A DNA stretch of 64,000 nt from positions 1 to 64,000 of the forward strand of contig DUOX01000002.1 in assembly GCA_012838665.1 (NCBI GenBank), in the 5' to 3' direction. The position numbers and the translations under genes were made by a program. This DNA comes from Clostridiales bacterium (lineage in GTDB: Bacteria > Bacillota > Clostridia > Oscillospirales > Oscillospiraceae). This document shows, in pieces, positions 15,346-29,974 of the stretch (positions within the stretch are counted from its first letter, which is position 1; every line of letters starts with the position of its first letter). The notes beneath the pieces are model-generated. The model made no database searches. It was not told the origin of the DNA and saw only the letters and a list, made by a program, of their open reading frames with translations.

Positions 15346-15915
15346 TTAAGCCGCCAAATCCTCTCTCTTAATGTACTTTCTCAGAGGATGGGACAGCGCG
15401 GCGCCCGCAACAATCACTATCACGGTATTGGGCAGCATATAGGTGCTGTTGTAGAGGAGGGAATAAATCCAAGTGTTGGTCATGGTCAGGTTCATGAACT
15501 CCTCTGGCATATACTGGGCATAAATGGTAATCCCGCTTACAAAGTGCACGGCAAACCTCACCAGGCAGCCTACAAGCCCGCCGCTGACAAGGCCCCACTT
15601 CCGGTTTTTAAAGAGCCCGGCAAAGCCTACGGCCATGTAGGCGACGGAATAGTCCAGCACCATGGACTGCCAGTTAACCGCAAATCCCGCCGCGAAAAAA
15701 TACTTCAGGGCACCGAAAATCAAACCAGCCCCCAAGCCCCAGCCCAGACCCCAGCGAACCGCAAACAGCACAAGGGGTATCATGACCAGGTCAATGGAGC
15801 CGCCAAAACCGCCGAAAGACATGCCGATGGGAATCTTTATGTAGCTTAGGACAAGGGCCATGGCTACAAATACGGCGCCCTCACATACGCATCTTAAAAC
15901 CCTTTTGGTTGACAT
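15346..15915 (-). CDS. thiT: Thiamine ECF-transporter S component ThiT
   Basis: Substrate-binding membrane subunit for thiamine that works with a shared ECF energizing module. The 189 residues form about six hydrophobic segments. Motifs typical of ThiT are read: GGSIDLVMIPLVLFA and the C-terminal YNSTYMLPNTVI. A TPP riboswitch with its own promoter lies directly upstream, which independently supports thiamine as substrate. No ecfA or ecfT lies next to it. Confidence 0.94.
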   Translation of the reverse strand: MSTKRVLRCVCEGAVFVAMALVLSYIKIPIGMSFGGFGGSIDLVMIPLVLFAVRWGLGWGLGAGLIFGALKYFFAAGFAVNWQSMVLDYSVAYMAVGFAGLFKNRKWGLVSGGLVGCLVRFAVHFVSGITIYAQYMPEEFMNLTMTNTWIYSLLYNSTYMLPNTVIVIVAGAALSHPLRKYIKREDLAA

Positions 15916-15975: not shown

Positions 15976-15992
15976 AAAAATACCAATTTATG

Positions 15993-16098
15993 TGTCCCTA
16001 CGCCGGCATTACCCGGATCAGGTTCCGCACCTCTCGGTGCAGGGGTCCGGAGCTTCAATTAGCTCCATCTCAGCCGGGAAAACCCGGCACCCCCCCTA
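15993..16098 (-). ncRNA. TPP riboswitch (THI element) controlling thiT
   Basis: On the minus strand the conserved TPP aptamer segments appear in order: GGGGTGCC, GGCTGAGA, GACCCCTGCACC, GAACCTGATCCGGGTAATG and GCCGGCGTAGGGA. It is followed by a terminator hairpin and thiT. High TPP should favour termination. Confidence 0.96.
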
Positions 16099-16111
16099 TT
16101 TCATTGAGAAC

Positions 16112-19250: not shown

Positions 19251-20195
19251 TCAGTCCGGCTCCCTGATAATCGTGCCGGTAAGCCCGGCTACGGCTTCTC
19301 CGGCCTTTTCCAGCAGTGTTATGAGAACTGTCCGCTCCGGCGCGGATTCCGCAAACGTCACGGCGGCCTCCACCTTAGGCAGCATTGAGCCGGGAGCGAA
19401 GTGCCCTTCCTCTATATACCTGCGGGCCTGGGCGGGACTGAGCTCGGACAGCCATTTTTGATCGGGCTTGTTGAAATTTACAGCCACCTTTTCCACGGCG
19501 GTGAGAATAACCAGAAGGTCCGCTCCCAGTTGTTCCGCCAGTTTTTCCGTGGCGTAGTCCTTATCGATGACGGCAGGAACCCCTTCCAAACGGTTCTCTC
19601 CCGTCCGGACAACGGGTATTCCTCCCCCTCCTGCCGCAATCACTACCTGCCCGGCCTCCAGCAGGGCAAGTATGGAATCCGTCTCTATTATCTCCACGGG
19701 CTTCGGACTTGCCACCACCTTGCGCCAGCCCCGGCCTGCGTCTTCCATAACCGCCGCGCCCGTTTCCGCGGCAAGTTTTTGGGCCTCTTCCTGCGTCATA
19801 AAGCCCCCGATGGGCTTGGTTGGCTTTTGGAAGGCCGGGTCGTTGGGGTCCACCACCACGTGGGTGAGAACCGTGACAACCGGCCTTTTGATTCCCCGGT
19901 TTAACAGCTCCTCCCTCAGGGCATTTTGCAGGTCATGGCCTATATATGCCTGGCTCATCGCAACCGAGACGGACAGGGGGACATCCTCCGCGTCCGGTTC
20001 CAGCTTTCTGTATGCCGCAAAGGCTTTTTCTATCATGCCCACCTGAGGGCCGTTGCCGTGAGTTATAACCACCTGATGCCCATTGGCAATCAGGTCCGCT
20101 ATGGCTTTTGCTGTTACCCTTGCGGCAGCAGCCTGTTCACTGAGATTCATCCCCAGGGCATTTCCGCCAAGGGCAACAACAATTCTTTTTCCCAT
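19251..20195 (-). CDS. arcC: Carbamate kinase
   Basis: Transfers phosphate from carbamoyl phosphate to ADP, yielding ATP, CO2 and ammonia. The 314 residues carry the family motifs VVALGGNAL, THGNGPQVG, IAAGGGGIPVV and IDKDYA. It begins 7 bp after the ygeW stop, so carbamoyl phosphate released by the YgeW-type enzyme would be its substrate. The arginine-deiminase genes arcA and arcB are not present, favouring a role in the purine/ureido catabolic cluster. Confidence 0.96.
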   Translation of the reverse strand: MGKRIVVALGGNALGMNLSEQAAAARVTAKAIADLIANGHQVVITHGNGPQVGMIEKAFAAYRKLEPDAEDVPLSVSVAMSQAYIGHDLQNALREELLNRGIKRPVVTVLTHVVVDPNDPAFQKPTKPIGGFMTQEEAQKLAAETGAAVMEDAGRGWRKVVASPKPVEIIETDSILALLEAGQVVIAAGGGGIPVVRTGENRLEGVPAVIDKDYATEKLAEQLGADLLVILTAVEKVAVNFNKPDQKWLSELSPAQARRYIEEGHFAPGSMLPKVEAAVTFAESAPERTVLITLLEKAGEAVAGLTGTIIREPD

Positions 20196-20202
20196 AATAT
20201 CA

Positions 20203-21399
20203 CTATCCCATCATTCGTAGAGTATTGCGTGTATGTATTTCATTCAGCATTTGGCCGGGGTCTTTCACTTTAGACAGGAAAATCATGGCTGCAATTATGT
20301 ATGGCTTATATCCGGCCTGCCTATACAGCTTTGTGCGGTATCTTTCAAACACGGTGGCCGACACCTCTCCCTGCCGGCAGGAGACTCCGGTAATGTCGGC
20401 GGGCAGGCAGTGGAGATACAGGGCCTTTCCGTCTCTTGTCCCGGCCATCATCTCCTCAGTGCATTCCCAGTCTTTGTGCAGGGTGTTCTGTGCGAGCATT
20501 TCCTTTTCCAGAGCATTTATGCCGTCAAAGTCCCCGGCTTCGTAAAGTTTGGTGCGCTTCTCCATGGCGGCATAGGGCGCCCAGCTCTTCGGATAGACTA
20601 TATCCGCACCCCTAAAGGCCTCCTCCATGGAATTTGTTTTTGTGAAGCTCCCGCCGCTTTCCGCTGCATTTTTCCTTGCAATCCCCTCCACCTCCGGCAT
20701 AATCTCATATCCCTCAGGATGGGCCAGGGTCACCTCCATGCCAAAGCGGGTCATAAGTCCTATAACCCCCTGAGGCACCGAAAGGGGCTTGCCGTAGGAG
20801 GGGCTGTATGCCCAGGTCATGGCCAGCTTTTTGCCTTTTAAGTTTTCCACGCCTCCGAATTCGTGGATAAGGTGGAGCATATCCGCCATGCACTGAGTGG
20901 GATGGTCGATGTCGCACTGGAGGTTAATAAGGCAGGGCCTCTGCTGAAGCACGCCGGCGCGGCTTCCATCAGTAACGGCGGCGGCAACCTCCCGCATGTA
21001 TGCGTTGCCCTTGCCTATGTACATATCGTCCCTGATGCCGATGACATCCGCCATGAAACTTACCATATTGGCAGTCTCCCGTACCGTTTCCCCGTGGGCT
21101 ATCTGGCTTTTGCCCTCGTCCAAATCCTGGACGTACAGCCCTAAGAGGTTGCAGGCGGAGACAAAGGAAAACCGGGTGCGGGTGGAGTTGTCCCGAAACA
21201 GGGAAACGGCCAGACCGGAGTCGAATATTCTGGCGGAGATATTGTTTTCCCGGAGACAGCGCAGGGCGTCTGCCACGGTAAACACCGCCTGAAGCTCCTC
21301 ATAGGTCTTCTCCCAGGTAAGGAGGAAATCGTCTCCATACATGCCCTTAAAATTTAATGAGTTAAGTTTAGCAATGAAAGATTTTATGGTCAAGTCCAT
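20203..21399 (-). CDS. ygeW: YgeW-type knotted carbamoyltransferase
   Basis: Aspartate/ornithine carbamoyltransferase relative of the knotted YgeW group; its natural acceptor is debated. The carbamoyl-phosphate motif SLFRDNSTRTRFSF and the HCLPAD motif are intact, and QCDIDHPTQCMADM corresponds to the HPxQ loop. The 398 residues fit YgeW, longer than ornithine carbamoyltransferase (about 330). Adjacent ygeY and arcC match the arrangement known from purine-degradation clusters. A GGAGG site precedes the ATG. Confidence 0.93.
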   Translation of the reverse strand: MDLTIKSFIAKLNSLNFKGMYGDDFLLTWEKTYEELQAVFTVADALRCLRENNISARIFDSGLAVSLFRDNSTRTRFSFVSACNLLGLYVQDLDEGKSQIAHGETVRETANMVSFMADVIGIRDDMYIGKGNAYMREVAAAVTDGSRAGVLQQRPCLINLQCDIDHPTQCMADMLHLIHEFGGVENLKGKKLAMTWAYSPSYGKPLSVPQGVIGLMTRFGMEVTLAHPEGYEIMPEVEGIARKNAAESGGSFTKTNSMEEAFRGADIVYPKSWAPYAAMEKRTKLYEAGDFDGINALEKEMLAQNTLHKDWECTEEMMAGTRDGKALYLHCLPADITGVSCRQGEVSATVFERYRTKLYRQAGYKPYIIAAMIFLSKVKDPGQMLNEIHTRNTLRMMG

Positions 21400-21423
21400 T
21401 TTTACTCCTCCAAAGCAATTTTT

Positions 21424-22635
21424 TTATTTAATATCCCGTATCAGTTGCTCGTACGCTCCGGGAACCGCCGCATATACTGCGGCGCACTTTACCAGGTCGC
21501 TTTTCCAGGTAATCTCGTTGGGAGCGTGGGCCTGGGCCTCGGCACCGGGGCCGAAACCAATGCAGGGAATTCCGTACCGGCCCATTATTGACACGCCGTT
21601 GGTGGAAAAAGTCCACTTATCCACCCTGGCCGGCCCGAACATGGCCTCATGGGCCTTCACAAGGGCTCTTGTAGGCGCCGCCTCCTCTGGTATCACCCAG
21701 GCCGGAAAATAGCACTCCGTAGGATACACAAGCCCTGTCCAGCTAGGGCTGTCGTAAGAGTACATGCTCACCTGTGCGCCGTATTTCCTCACGCTGGGCA
21801 GGGCGGAAATCTCCTCCAGGGCGCCCTCCCAGGTCTCGCCCCAGGTGAGCCGCCTGTCGATGGAGACAGCGGCCATATCCGCCACGGCGCAGCGGCTGGG
21901 GGAATTGAAAAATATCTGGGACACCGTAAGGGTTCCCTTGCCCAGAAAGAGGTCGTCCCCCAGCCTGTTCGCCAGGTCGCGAAGCTCCTGTATTATATCC
22001 GCCATCTTGTAAATGGCGTTGTCCCCCCGCTCTGGGGCGCTTCCATGGCAGGAGACTCCCTTTACCTCCACCCTGATTTCCATGCGGCCCCGCTGGCCAC
22101 GGTAAATTCCCCCGTCGGTGGGCTCCGTAATCACTACAAATTCCGGCCGTATTTTATCCTCGTTTATTATATACTGCCAGCACAGGCCGTCGCAATCCTC
22201 TTCCTGGACGGTTCCGGTTACCAAAACAGTCACGCCATCGGGGATAAGGTTTAAATCCTTCATTATTCTGGCCCCGTAGCAGGCGGATACCAGGCCCCCA
22301 AGCTGGTCCGAGGCCCCTCGGCCGCCTATTTCCGTTTCCGTCTCAAAGCCCCGGTAGGGGTCAAATTTCCAGTTGCTTGGCTCTCCCAGACCCACGGTAT
22401 CCACATGGGCGTCAAAGGCAATAATGCGGCTTCCGGTTCCCATACTGCCCAGGACATTCCCCATGGGATCTATTGTCACCTTGTCAAAGCCTAACTTTTC
22501 CATCTCCCTGGCTATGCGCCTGACTACTTTTTCTTCGCCGCAGCTTTCCCCGGGAATGGCTATGAGCTGGCGAAGAAACTCCGACATGCTTTTTTCGTAA
22601 CCGGCGGCGGCTGCTTTTATGGCTTCGAAATTCAT
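21424..22635 (-). CDS. ygeY: YgeY-family selenium-metabolism-linked M20 hydrolase
   Basis: M20 dinuclear-zinc peptidase/deacylase fold. The metal ligand motifs [20 protein letters not shown] and [11 protein letters not shown] and a late HAPNE are intact over 403 residues. The name reflects co-occurrence with selenium-dependent hydroxylases, not a demonstrated selenium content; no in-frame TGA is seen. It is the first gene of the ygeY-ygeW-arcC operon and is divergent from the xanthine dehydrogenase gene. GGAGGAGC precedes the ATG. Confidence 0.92.
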
Positions 22636-25334: not shown

Positions 25335-25373
25335 CCAACCGTCGCCGGACCCGGCGGCGGTTTTTTATTTGTG
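25335..25373 (+). terminator. Terminator between xanthine dehydrogenase and ygfK
   Basis: Stem CCGTCGCCGG/CCGGCGGCGG followed by TTTTTTATTT on plus, overlapping the last codons of the convergent ygfK. Confidence 0.75.
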
Positions 25374-28352
25374 CAGCAGGTGCGCGTAGTCTGTTTCTAC
25401 CGTTCTTATAAGAGCCGCGATGTCCCGGGGAAGCCCCGCGTTATCAGATATTATGTCAACCGCTTGAGTTTTTCCACCAAGCCGGACTTCATATTTTCCG
25501 TTTTCCAGCGGCAAAAAGCCCTGATTTGCGCTGTCACCAAAATCCTCTTCAGACCAGAAGAGGGTGAATTTGTGTTTGTATGGAGCCGAGTCATAGGGGC
25601 AGAAGGTTTCACAGTTGCCGCATTCGTTGCACATGCCGTCAATATGTACTATCTGGGGCCTGCCTTTCACCGATACGGAAATATTTGCCCTGTTGGGGCA
25701 CACGTCAACGCAGTTTTCGCACACGGTTGCACACTCAAGGCAGCGCCGGGAAGGGTCGCAGTTCGTACAACCTGTAATCAACACGCCCTTTTTCTCCCGT
25801 ACCCTCTCCTGCGAGGGCGCTACGTTTACATGGACGTACTTCTCTAAATCCGCGCCCGTTATGGCCGATGCCACCCTGGCGGCGTCTGCTATGGCCTCCA
25901 CCACCGTAGAAGGCCCGCAGCGCCCGTCACCGGCAATATAAACCGAAGCCTGACTGGTCTCCAAAGTTGCGGGGTTTGTCACTGCCCTGCCCCGGCTGTC
26001 CGTCTTAATACCGTTTGCCGTAAGGAAGTCCCTGTCAATCTGCTCTCCCACGGCGGCAATCACAGTGTCCGCCGGGATTTGCACCGTCTCCGGAGTCTCC
26101 ACTGGCCGGCGCCTGCCGTCGGCCTCGGGCTCGCCCAGGGCAATTTTCCTGCACTCTAAGACACCGGAGCTCACCCCTACCGGCGATAACAGTTCACAAA
26201 GCTTTACGCCTTCCTCCAGTGCCAGCTTGAGTTCTTCAAAGTGTGCGGGCATATAGCGTTTAGTGCGGCGGTATACGAGGGAGACGCTTTCTACTCCAGG
26301 CACCCGGAGGGCCGCCCGGGCGGCGTCTACGGCGGTGTTCCCTCCGCCAATTACCGCAACGTTTTTGCCCAGGCGCAGGCCATTGGGCATGGCATTAAAG
26401 CTTTTTAAAAACTCAATGGCGTTAATGCTGCTGCCGTATTTGAGAGGCAGTACTCCCGGCTTTAGGGCGCCCAGGCACAGCACCACCGCGTCAAAGCCCA
26501 TGGATTTCAGTTCCTGAACGGAGCGCACCTGGTAACCCAATCGGAATTTAACACCCGCGGCCCTGCACAGCTCTATATCCCTGTCAAGAGCCTCCCGGCT
26601 CAGCCGAAACTCCGGAATCACGTGCCGAAGTATGCCCCCAAGGGAATTTGATTTTTCAAACACGGTTACGTCGCAGCCGCTCCTGGCCAGCAGGAAGGCC
26701 GAAGCCAGCCCCGCCGCCCCGCCGCCTGCCACTGCCACTTTTTTCCCGGTGCCCTCCGGCGGCTTTATAGTCCAAATAAGTTCCTTGAAGGCCTTTTCGG
26801 CGCACCGGAGCTTTGTCCCCCGGATATCCACGCCCTCGTCGTAAAAAAGACGGTTGCAGCGTTCCCTGCAGGGCTGGGGACATATGCTGCCCGTTGTAAA
26901 AGGAAGGGGATTGCGGTGCGTTATAACCTGCAAAGCCTCCAGATACCTGCCCTCCCCCGCCAGCCGGATATAGCCGGGTATGTCCTGGCCTATGGGGCAG
27001 CCGTCCCTGCAGGGGGCCGCAAAGCAGTCCATGAGAGGCACCTGCCTGTTTATTTTTATAACCGGTTTGGGCGGGCCCTCCTTCCTGTAATGGGGACTTA
27101 TCAGGGCGTCGGCGGCAAGGCGGGCAGTTTTTTCCACGTCGACACCGGAAAAGAGGGTGTATTCGGCATCCACAAACATGTCCGCCATCTGCCGCAGGCG
27201 ATTATAGCCTCCGGGCTTTAAAAGGGTGGTGACCATGGTTATAGGCCATATGCCAACATCGAAAAGATTTTTTGCGTTAAAGGCGTCCGCTCCCCCGGCA
27301 AAGGAGATGCGCAGTTTCCCTTCGAACTCCCTTGTAAGTTTCTCCGCCAATGCGATGGTAAGAGGATACAGGCTCCGGCCTGACATGTACATTTCCCCTG
27401 CCGGCAGTTCCCCCACCTGGGGCGCAACCGGCAGGGTGTTGGTGAGCTTTACTCCAAACCAAAGCCCCTCTTTCCCCGCCAGGTTCTGAAGTCTGCGGAA
27501 CATCGGCACCGCTTCTTCATATTGCAGGTCGTCATTGAAGTGGAAATCGTCAAACACCAGGTAATCAAAACCCAGACGGTTCAATGTTTCACGTGTAACT
27601 TTATAGCCCAGGAGCGTAGGATTGCATTTGACAAAGGTGTGCAGGCCCTTTTCCCTTATGAGATAGGCGGCAATGCGCTCTATGTCCCGGGACGGGCAGC
27701 CATGAAGGGTGCTCAGGGTGATACTGTCGCTGATTAGGGGGCTGATTTGGTTTACATAATCCGTGTCTATCCGGCTGAACCTGTGGATATTCCGGATAGC
27801 CCAGTCCCGGCATATGTTGAAGATTTCGGTGTTTTCCGCGTTTTTCAGGCCCTCGATAAAGCCGTCGATTTTCCCGGAGCGTATGCCCTCCATGTCATAC
27901 CCTACGGACATATTGAAAATGAAGCCCTCCGGGTCTCCCAGCTCAAATTCCCTGGAGATAAGCTTTATGGCAAACCATGCCTTTATGTATTCCTCCATGG
28001 CCTGGGGAACCCGCAGTTCCGTAGACCATTCGCAGTTGTAGCACTCGTCCGCCGCCGTAATGCAGGGCTTGGGCACCGGCAGGTCCTCCCCGTCCAGCAC
28101 CTGCACCGTTTTCAGCTCGAAAAAGCGGCCTCCGGCGGCGTAGGCGGCAATGATGTTCTGGGCAAGCTGGGTGTGGGGCCCCGCCGCCGGGCCTATGGGC
28201 GTCTCCAGCTTCTCCCCGAAAAACTTAAGCGCCTTGCCCTCGGGAGCCCTGTACAGCTTTTCCACCCCGAAAATTGTTTTTCTGGCTGAGTACTCCTGGA
28301 AAATCCAGTCCATAAGCTGCGGAAAGGGTATGGGTCTCATGCGGTCGCTCAT
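25365..28352 (-). CDS. ygfK: Putative selenate-reductase-type subunit YgfK (Fe-S flavoprotein)
   Basis: Large electron-transfer flavoprotein of unresolved biochemical role. Order: an N-terminal dihydropyrimidine-dehydrogenase-like barrel region (about residues 1-430), a GltD-type 4Fe-4S domain (CFAAPCRDGCPIGQ ... CPQPCRERC), an FAD domain (VAVAGGGAAGLASAF), an NAD(P) site (VAVIGGGNTAVDAARAA) and a C-terminal double ferredoxin (CENCVDVCPN and CNECGNCETFCPYD). I prefer the ATG at 28352 because GGGGGG lies 6 nt upstream; the frame is open to an ATG at 28394 overlapping the ssnA stop. A plausible redox partner of the FAD-less xanthine dehydrogenase (inference). Confidence 0.93.
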   Translation of the reverse strand: MSDRMRPIPFPQLMDWIFQEYSARKTIFGVEKLYRAPEGKALKFFGEKLETPIGPAAGPHTQLAQNIIAAYAAGGRFFELKTVQVLDGEDLPVPKPCITAADECYNCEWSTELRVPQAMEEYIKAWFAIKLISREFELGDPEGFIFNMSVGYDMEGIRSGKIDGFIEGLKNAENTEIFNICRDWAIRNIHRFSRIDTDYVNQISPLISDSITLSTLHGCPSRDIERIAAYLIREKGLHTFVKCNPTLLGYKVTRETLNRLGFDYLVFDDFHFNDDLQYEEAVPMFRRLQNLAGKEGLWFGVKLTNTLPVAPQVGELPAGEMYMSGRSLYPLTIALAEKLTREFEGKLRISFAGGADAFNAKNLFDVGIWPITMVTTLLKPGGYNRLRQMADMFVDAEYTLFSGVDVEKTARLAADALISPHYRKEGPPKPVIKINRQVPLMDCFAAPCRDGCPIGQDIPGYIRLAGEGRYLEALQVITHRNPLPFTTGSICPQPCRERCNRLFYDEGVDIRGTKLRCAEKAFKELIWTIKPPEGTGKKVAVAGGGAAGLASAFLLARSGCDVTVFEKSNSLGGILRHVIPEFRLSREALDRDIELCRAAGVKFRLGYQVRSVQELKSMGFDAVVLCLGALKPGVLPLKYGSSINAIEFLKSFNAMPNGLRLGKNVAVIGGGNTAVDAARAALRVPGVESVSLVYRRTKRYMPAHFEELKLALEEGVKLCELLSPVGVSSGVLECRKIALGEPEADGRRRPVETPETVQIPADTVIAAVGEQIDRDFLTANGIKTDSRGRAVTNPATLETSQASVYIAGDGRCGPSTVVEAIADAARVASAITGADLEKYVHVNVAPSQERVREKKGVLITGCTNCDPSRRCLECATVCENCVDVCPNRANISVSVKGRPQIVHIDGMCNECGNCETFCPYDSAPYKHKFTLFWSEEDFGDSANQGFLPLENGKYEVRLGGKTQAVDIISDNAGLPRDIAALIRTVETDYAHLLHK

Positions 28353-28390
28353 CATATTCCCCCCTCTTCTTTTCTTGGAACGCAGTCTGG

Positions 28391-29722
28391 TCATCCGTTA
28401 AGAGTTTTCCAGAGCTTTGCGGCGGTTTGGCAGATGTCGGCTTTTATTTTCTCTTCATCAACGCAGGTGAGTTCCCTGTCTTTCATAAGCACGCGGCCGT
28501 TTACAATGGTTGTGCGGCACTGTCCCCCGTTCATTCCAAACAACATATGGCCGTCCGCGTTTTCGTGGGAGAAGGGCGTATAGGGCTTATAGTCCATTAT
28601 AATCACGTCTGCCGCCGCCCCGGGCTTAAGAACGCCAAGAGGCTTTTCAAAATACCTCGCGGCGATTCTGGCGTTGTTGTAAAAGAGCATTTCCGTTACC
28701 TCCTGCCATGCCACATTGGGCAGGCCCGCGTTGTGGCGCTGGATAGCCAGGGCTACCTTGGCGCTCTCCAACATGTCGTGGGTGTATGCATCTGTACCCA
28801 GACCCACCAGTATGCCCTTTTCGAACATCTGCAGAACGGGAGAGCAGCCTACGGCGTTGCCCATGTTGGATTGGGGATTGTTGACCACCATGGTATCGGT
28901 AGCGCAAATCAGGTCCATCTCTTCGGAATTTATATGTATGCAGTGGCCCAGAATAGTCTTCTCCCCTAAAATCCCCCGGTCCATAAGGCGGCTAACCGGG
29001 CGCTTGCCGTATTTTTGCAGGGTGTCGTTAAGGTCGTTTGGACCCTCGGAAACGTGGAGATGGAAGCCGGCAAGGTCATCGTTTGCCTCCACGCACCGCT
29101 CCAGGGTTCTGTCGGAAACCGTAAACAGGGCATGAATTCCAAACATGCCTTTAAGCATATCGTCGTTCAGGGACCTTGTGTATTTGATAAACTCCGCGTT
29201 TTCCCTGATGCCCTCCAGGCACTTTTCCTCTCCGTCCCTGTCGGACACCTCGTAGCACAGGCAGGAGCGCAGCCCCAGTTCCTTTGTAACTTCCCCGATG
29301 GCAAACAGCGAGCCCGGTATCTGGCAGTAGCTGGCGTGGTGGTCGAATATGGTGGTAACTCCCTGCCTTATGCAGTCCATGACGGTGGCGTAGGCGGACG
29401 CCCTGGTGCCCTCCATGGTCAGGTGCCGGTCTATGTTCCACCACATGCCCTCCAAAATCTCAAGAAAGTTTGTAGGGGCATAGCCCTTTATGGAAAGGCC
29501 CCGGGCCAGGGCGCTGTAAATATGGGTGTGGGCATTGATAAAACCCGGCATGATGACGCCGCCCCGGGCGTCCACAAACTCCGCCTGGGGGTACTTTTTG
29601 CGGAGCTCATCGTAGTCCCCCACCTCTTTGATTATTTCCCCATCCGTCAGGACGGCGCCGTTTTCATAGTAGGGCTCCTCCCTGTTTCGGGTCAACACCT
29701 TCCCTTTTCCTATAAGTAGCAA
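28391..29722 (-). CDS. ssnA: SsnA-family aminohydrolase
   Basis: Amidohydrolase-superfamily enzyme related to guanine/chlorohydrolase-type deaminases; the substrate is not settled. Metal and catalytic motifs are intact: NAHTHIYS with His65 and His67, GFHLHVSE, LGHCIHI and GLGTDAYTHD. The start is TTG at 29722, with AGGAGG 8 nt upstream. It is the first gene of the ssnA-ygfK operon, and follows a 185-nt structured leader. Its place in a purine cluster suggests a purine or ring-opened purine substrate (inference). Confidence 0.93.
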   Translation of the reverse strand: MLLIGKGKVLTRNREEPYYENGAVLTDGEIIKEVGDYDELRKKYPQAEFVDARGGVIMPGFINAHTHIYSALARGLSIKGYAPTNFLEILEGMWWNIDRHLTMEGTRASAYATVMDCIRQGVTTIFDHHASYCQIPGSLFAIGEVTKELGLRSCLCYEVSDRDGEEKCLEGIRENAEFIKYTRSLNDDMLKGMFGIHALFTVSDRTLERCVEANDDLAGFHLHVSEGPNDLNDTLQKYGKRPVSRLMDRGILGEKTILGHCIHINSEEMDLICATDTMVVNNPQSNMGNAVGCSPVLQMFEKGILVGLGTDAYTHDMLESAKVALAIQRHNAGLPNVAWQEVTEMLFYNNARIAARYFEKPLGVLKPGAAADVIIMDYKPYTPFSHENADGHMLFGMNGGQCRTTIVNGRVLMKDRELTCVDEEKIKADICQTAAKLWKTLNG

Positions 29723-29910
29723 AGCGACTACCTCCTTTTCGCAGTTTTCCCGGTAAACTAATGCGTCAATTAAACATATTGGGGAGCGTTCAATCCTATG
29801 AACGCTCCCCAGGTTTTGTTCCGGCTAAGCCACCGGAACACGCCTTAAAGAGCGGTCAAGGTGGCCCGTGCGCAAAGCACTCCGTTACAACCAACACTAT
29901 GTATTTGTAA
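29723..29910 (-). ncRNA. Structured cis-regulatory leader RNA of ssnA-ygfK
   Basis: The minus-strand leader, about 185 nt, contains several stems: GTGC/GCAC with loop TTTGC; GTTCCGG/CCGGAAC; GCCACC able to pair with GGTGGC (exclusive with the previous stem); an outer GGTT/AACC; and a perfect 11-bp hairpin GGGGAGCGTTC/GAACGCTCCCC at 29781-29810, about 50 nt before the AGGAGG. CGCTC in the front part can also pair with GAGCG of the last hairpin. A conserved ssnA leader motif has, to my recollection, been catalogued in Firmicutes; membership is untested here. Confidence 0.6.
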
Positions 29911-29913
29911 TGA

Positions 29914-29942
29914 ATTTTACCACTTTTTCATCTTTTTGACAA
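29914..29942 (-). promoter_or_regulatory. Sigma-A promoter of the ssnA-ygfK operon
   Basis: TTGTCA (29937-29942) and TAAAAT (29914-29919) on the minus strand with a 17-bp spacer. Start near 29907 gives a leader of about 185 nt. Confidence 0.75.
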
Positions 29943-29974
29943 TAGATAAAACCCGGATTTATCGGAGACAGAGC

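Follow-up and report, generated by a model that had tools for sequence, protein, structure and literature searches.

Purine riboswitches are built on a three-way junction fold. The xanthine-I riboswitch (NMT1 motif), found in Proteobacteria only, senses xanthine and uric acid and works as a translational OFF switch (PMC7373994). On the metabolic side, anaerobic reduction of uric acid via yanthine was reported in 2025: in the E. coli pathway, XdhD turns uric acid into yanthine (2,8-dioxopurine) by reduction, YgfK reduces yanthine, and the rings are opened by SsnA and HyuA (PMC12507026). The ssnA RNA (RF03031) is a catalogued orphan cis-regulatory RNA, and no ligand was found assigned to it in the papers searched. 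The ssnA leader in the window, that is, the whole stretch of 64,000 nucleotides that was analyzed, belongs to this class.

Scanning the window with cmscan gave a match to RF03031 at 29853–29900 on the minus strand with 42.0 bits against a gathering score of 37.3 (E 4.8e-8), covering the full model (1–48), and it was the sole credible RNA-family match to the leader. The ssnA leader motif mentioned in the preliminary description, which had proposed an Infernal search with Rfam models, is thus a real family. The RNA shows two stacked short helices (P1 and P2, both intact) with an asymmetric conserved internal loop, and an ssnA-type gene starts about 130 nt downstream. The leader boundaries given before were correct, and all elements drawn at that time were found on the minus strand: promoter, GCCACC/GGTGGC, GTTCCGG/CCGGAAC, CGCTC/GAGCG, a hairpin, AGGAGG and the TTG start at 29722. 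The hairpin in front of AGGAGG/TTG (29811–29780) has 13 pairs instead of the 11 bp that had been counted. The features of the locus are as follows.

29914–29942, minus strand: sigma-70-type promoter TTGTCA-N17-TAAAAT, TG-extended (10/12 consensus matches)
29853–29900, minus strand: ssnA RNA (RF03031), aptamer-like domain (cmscan, 42.0 bits)
29862–29893, minus strand: P1 UGGUU (29893–29889)/GGCCA (29866–29862) around P2 GUGC (29880–29877)/GCAC (29871–29868), with conserved loop GUAACGGA (compensatory changes in relatives)
29827–29867, minus strand: predicted anti-aptamer pairing GGGCCACC (29867–29860)/GGUGGCUU (29834–29827), which excludes P1 (MFE folds of the 81-nt transcript and the full-length leader)
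29818–29839, minus strand: hairpin GUUCCGG/CCGGAAC, which excludes the anti-aptamer pairing (sequence and folds)
29795–29861, minus strand: predicted antiterminator CCUUGACCGCUCUUUAAGG (29861–29843)/CCUGGGGAGCGUUCAUAGG (29813–29795), which abuts P1 and takes up the 5' arm of the terminator (MFE of the transcript ending before the terminator 3' arm)
29780–29811, minus strand: terminator-like hairpin GGGGAGCGUUC/GAACGCUCCCC with a weak U-tract (AAUAUGUUUAAUU) (13 pairs; −23.6 kcal/mol for the inner 30 nt)
29720–29736, minus strand: ribosome binding site AGGAGG (29736–29731) and TTG start of ssnA (sequence)
28391–29722, minus strand: ssnA, amidohydrolase of uric acid degradation (NF005540 SsnA, 653 bits, above cut-off)
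25365–28394, minus strand: ygfK, yanthine reductase homologue (TIGR03315, 1376 bits, above cut-off; function from PMC12507026)
22741–25302, plus strand: xdhD-like selenium-dependent xanthine dehydrogenase, convergent and not under the leader (TIGR03311, 1384 bits; ORF)
21424–22635, minus strand: M20-peptidase (YgeY)-like ORF (sequence reading)
20203–21399, minus strand: carbamoyltransferase (YgeW)-like ORF (sequence reading)
19251–20195, minus strand: carbamate kinase-like ORF (sequence reading)

By this pathway, the leader would control the two steps just after XdhD. The three ORFs at 19251–22635 on the minus strand, where no ssnA RNA match was obtained, read as genes that, next to xdhD, complete a cluster for uric acid degradation, and a hydantoinase-like gene (52% identity) is present elsewhere in the genome. 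The window also carries a TPP riboswitch (RF00059, 56.6 bits) at 15978–16104 on the minus strand, upstream of a 189-aa membrane protein (15346–15915, minus strand) that may be ThiT-like. At 29779–29812 on the plus strand, the same hairpin as in the ssnA leader is followed by GTTTTGTTCC, which gives that strand a terminator-like site as well.

Rfam models only 48 nt of the RNA, the first third of the leader, leaving expression platforms and non-ssnA contexts outside the model; the rest of the leader was studied in 135 non-redundant relatives, nearly all from Oscillospiraceae. Across them, the core hairpin GNAASGNAGUG...GCRCACGGGC has covariation support. The pattern used for collecting fixed the core and GGGC, so invariance of both is partly by construction, while the 5' strand of P1 was left free. 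P1 pairs 12-35, 11-36, 10-37 and 9-38 are standard in 134/134 sites, with four pair types at 9-38 (AU, GU, GC, UA). Pair 8-39 appears as UG, CG, UA or AU and is unpaired in a quarter of the sites, and P2 pair 24-30 as CG, UA or UG. In the alignment of 68 distinct rows, 13 double-changed cells were counted against 4.3 after shuffling, and none of 500 shuffles gave a covariation score as high. The window RNA has a rare U-G at pair 11-36, G-C at 9-38 and U-A at 8-39, and its loop GUAACGGA was seen in 19 of the 135 relatives. A conserved leader with covarying stems thus stands before ssnA in related genomes, the two things whose lack would have spoken against the structured leader first proposed. 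At L231 and L232 the core reads GUAAAG and GCAAAG; position 17 varies between C, G and A in an otherwise near-invariant loop. Locus L031 has a partial tandem duplicate of the core (GGCTGCAAGGAAGTGCTATGCGC) about 40 nt upstream of an intact copy. Upstream of the motif, promoter-like sites were found in 67/134 relatives but in 10% after mono-shuffling; the −10 element mostly ends 25–31 nt before the core.

Downstream of the motif, a hairpin followed by a U-tract was found in 128/135 leaders, compared with 59/204 shuffled sequences (29%). The window and six other leaders have no such terminator, and those six may act on translation. In 29 sites the terminator uses at least two bases of the aptamer (P1, P2 or core), as in L149 (GCGCACGGGC...GCCCGUGCGC-UUUU) and L110 (GCAGCGGCUGUAAC...GUUACGGCGGUUGC-UUUU), and because it takes these bases, a transcript cannot hold the conserved fold and terminate at once. 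In the majority group, the 5' strand of P1 can pair with CUAUC (P0), overlapping the antiterminator strand, which pairs as CACUC with GAGUG or as CACCUAUC with GAUAGGUG. Compensatory change in P0 at position 5 left 31/33 paired, against a permutation mean of 21.4 (0/500 permutations). For the 99 leaders without shared bases, the aptamer disfavors the terminator, with a median coupling of +1.7 kcal/mol where controls gave −0.1 (MWU p 2e-11, a value that overstates independence given that the sequences are related); the opposite, OFF-like sign (coupling below −1) was seen in 13/99. The model of the majority pattern predicts an ON switch. Conserved aptamer and expression platform are therefore coupled in the family through terminators, mutual exclusivity and folding energy, with a weak U-tract in the window.

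An OFF riboswitch, in which P0 plus terminator would be the bound state and shut the genes down, is highly improbable. It would be in keeping with a P0 that encloses P2 and covaries in the majority group, and with xanthine-I being a known OFF switch (PMC7373994), but the 29 sites where termination consumes P1, P2 or core bases argue against it, and a substrate would hardly be expected to repress the operon that breaks it down. The leader, an ssnA RNA, is probably a transcriptional ON riboswitch that serves the anaerobic breakdown of uric acid, and its ligand would most likely be an early oxopurine, either uric acid or the XdhD product yanthine. In this ON mechanism, the ligand would stabilize the short hairpin aptamer (P1 and P2 around the conserved GNAASGNA loop) and close the P1 strands to the competing pairing, be it the terminator arm, P0 or the anti-aptamer; the antiterminator could then form and ssnA-ygfK be transcribed. 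Without ligand, the competing pairing would take the P1 strand and the terminator would form. In the window, the competitor would be GGGCCACC/GGUGGCUU for P1 UGGUU/GGCCA and the GGGGAGCGUUC/GAACGCUCCCC hairpin for the antiterminator CCUUGACCGCUC.../...GGGGAGCGUUCAUAGG.

The window leader up to the 13-bp hairpin (128 nt) folds at −59.1 kcal/mol, far below the mean of −39.2 for dinucleotide shuffles (z −5.6), none of which in 200 folded as well. Equilibrium folding of an 81-nt transcript gave the anti-aptamer pairing; a transcript just short of the terminator 3' arm gave the GUUCCGG/CCGGAAC hairpin and the long antiterminator beside P1; and the full-length leader gave the anti-aptamer and the 13-bp hairpin. 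Such folds of truncated transcripts show no ligand dependence by themselves. They would place the two mutually exclusive pairings, earlier taken as an expression platform, in one mechanism. The coupling between aptamer and terminator in the window is +4.98 kcal/mol, a value reached by 14/300 shuffled controls.

The hairpin at 29780–29811 on the minus strand was not detected as a U-tract terminator, so attenuation in the window may be weak or may work otherwise, without a canonical U-tract, and termination efficiency is uncertain. That the window leader is a derivative which has decayed or acts on translation is rather doubtful. The weak U-tract would fit a derivative, as would the score of 42.0 bits, which places the RNA in the lowest-scoring tier of ssnA RNA matches; against this, the core sequence is fully conserved, P1 is kept by compensatory change, and the competition between antiterminator and terminator is retained. 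Translation control in the window found no support, since the predicted folds show no SD sequestration.

Of 150 genomes sampled from the window's family, 32 have the RNA and 40 have SsnA, with all 32 among the 40, an overlap whose chance probability would be 1.7e-25 for independent genomes, which these are not. Larger scans gave matches in 109/400 genomes of the family and in 4/398 of the phylum, two of the latter above the cut-off; the phylum matches L032 and L033, sub-threshold and without SsnA in the vicinity, were set aside. Further copies, nearly all in Oscillospiraceae, came from scanning named genomes with a DNA pattern. Pattern matches outside an ssnA context, mostly in unrelated taxa, were taken as chance (L066, L094, L113, L141, L185). 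All 31 above-cut-off matches of the first genome scans precede ssnA, and SsnA lies within 1 kb at 107/120 pattern sites.

Some copies precede other genes. At L085 the RNA stands before a dihydropyrimidinase/hydantoinase gene and at L110 before an NfnA/NfnB-like flavoprotein pair; the RNAs at these two loci and at L157 exceed the Rfam cut-off. At L157 (1738–1789) and L179 (2845–2896), the gene that follows encodes a YczE-like membrane protein and may be a new purine-related gene; a PbuX-like xanthine permease gene lies upstream in divergent orientation. These four loci look genuine. One genome (G767) has three copies, before ssnA, the hydantoinase gene and the NfnAB-like pair, the last just below the cut-off. 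The two-gene NfnAB-like unit follows the RNA at L110, L221, L223 and L225, and the association suggests that it feeds electrons into the reduction of uric acid or yanthine.

Selenium-dependent xanthine dehydrogenase (TIGR03311) is present in 25/25 genomes with the RNA, and xdhD usually lies outside the transcription unit of the RNA, being co-directionally downstream in three loci. Because of these two observations, gene context points to uric acid and yanthine as the leading ligand candidates, with xanthine and later intermediates behind. An ON riboswitch specifically for yanthine, set also before the hydantoinase gene and the NfnAB-like pair, is a tentative but possible version. It is unlikely that the ligand is instead the molybdenum cofactor, a selenium-related compound or a general purine such as guanine, even though XdhD is a molybdenum enzyme and ssnA and ygfK were formerly, and for long, annotated as selenium metabolism genes. 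In the loci read, the RNA stands in front of ssnA-ygfK, the hydantoinase gene or NfnAB-like genes but not of xdhD, and the MOCO and Purine Rfam models gave no match to the window leader. Since the controlled genes belong to the uric acid pathway or to electron supply and the gene of the molybdenum enzyme is usually not under the RNA, a purine-degradation ligand is favored and the molybdenum cofactor was rejected on gene context. Given the reductive uric acid pathway, the candidate ligands of this orphan class are now few and its switch direction can be predicted. If confirmed, the RNA would be a sensor in gut bacteria for uric acid or its breakdown product, of interest in work on hyperuricemia and as a part for biosensors.

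Among known systems, the RAT hairpins of BglG/LicT antiterminators have a similar architecture, a conserved hairpin of about 30 nt overlapping a terminator with ON logic, but they are bound by protein. That the ssnA hairpin is likewise the target of a purine-responsive RNA-binding antiterminator (BglG/LicT- or ANTAR-like), with no riboswitch involved, seems improbable. ANTAR proteins occur in 17/25 genomes with the RNA, the window's among them, but they are missing from the other 8, the CAT-RBD domain is missing from the window's genome (G000) and from 20/25, and no antiterminator gene was recognized beside the RNA; moreover, the single-stranded loop is near-invariant across genera, as expected of a ligand pocket. 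The xanthine-I riboswitch (PMC7373994) resembles the ssnA RNA in being a small bulged-hairpin aptamer associated with purine degradation genes. Its conserved sequence differs, the NMT1 consensus gave no match in 29700–29950 at E up to 10, and the ssnA RNA is found in Bacillota with terminators and is predicted to be an ON switch. Purine riboswitches (guanine, adenine and xanthine variants; PMC9295807), too, commonly have transcription terminators in Bacillota, and oxopurine ligands like theirs are conceivable for the ssnA RNA, but the window leader has no match to the purine family. The closest relation is to the ssnA RNA (RF03031) itself, which the leader matches in sequence and structure with a score over the gathering threshold and in its place immediately before ssnA.
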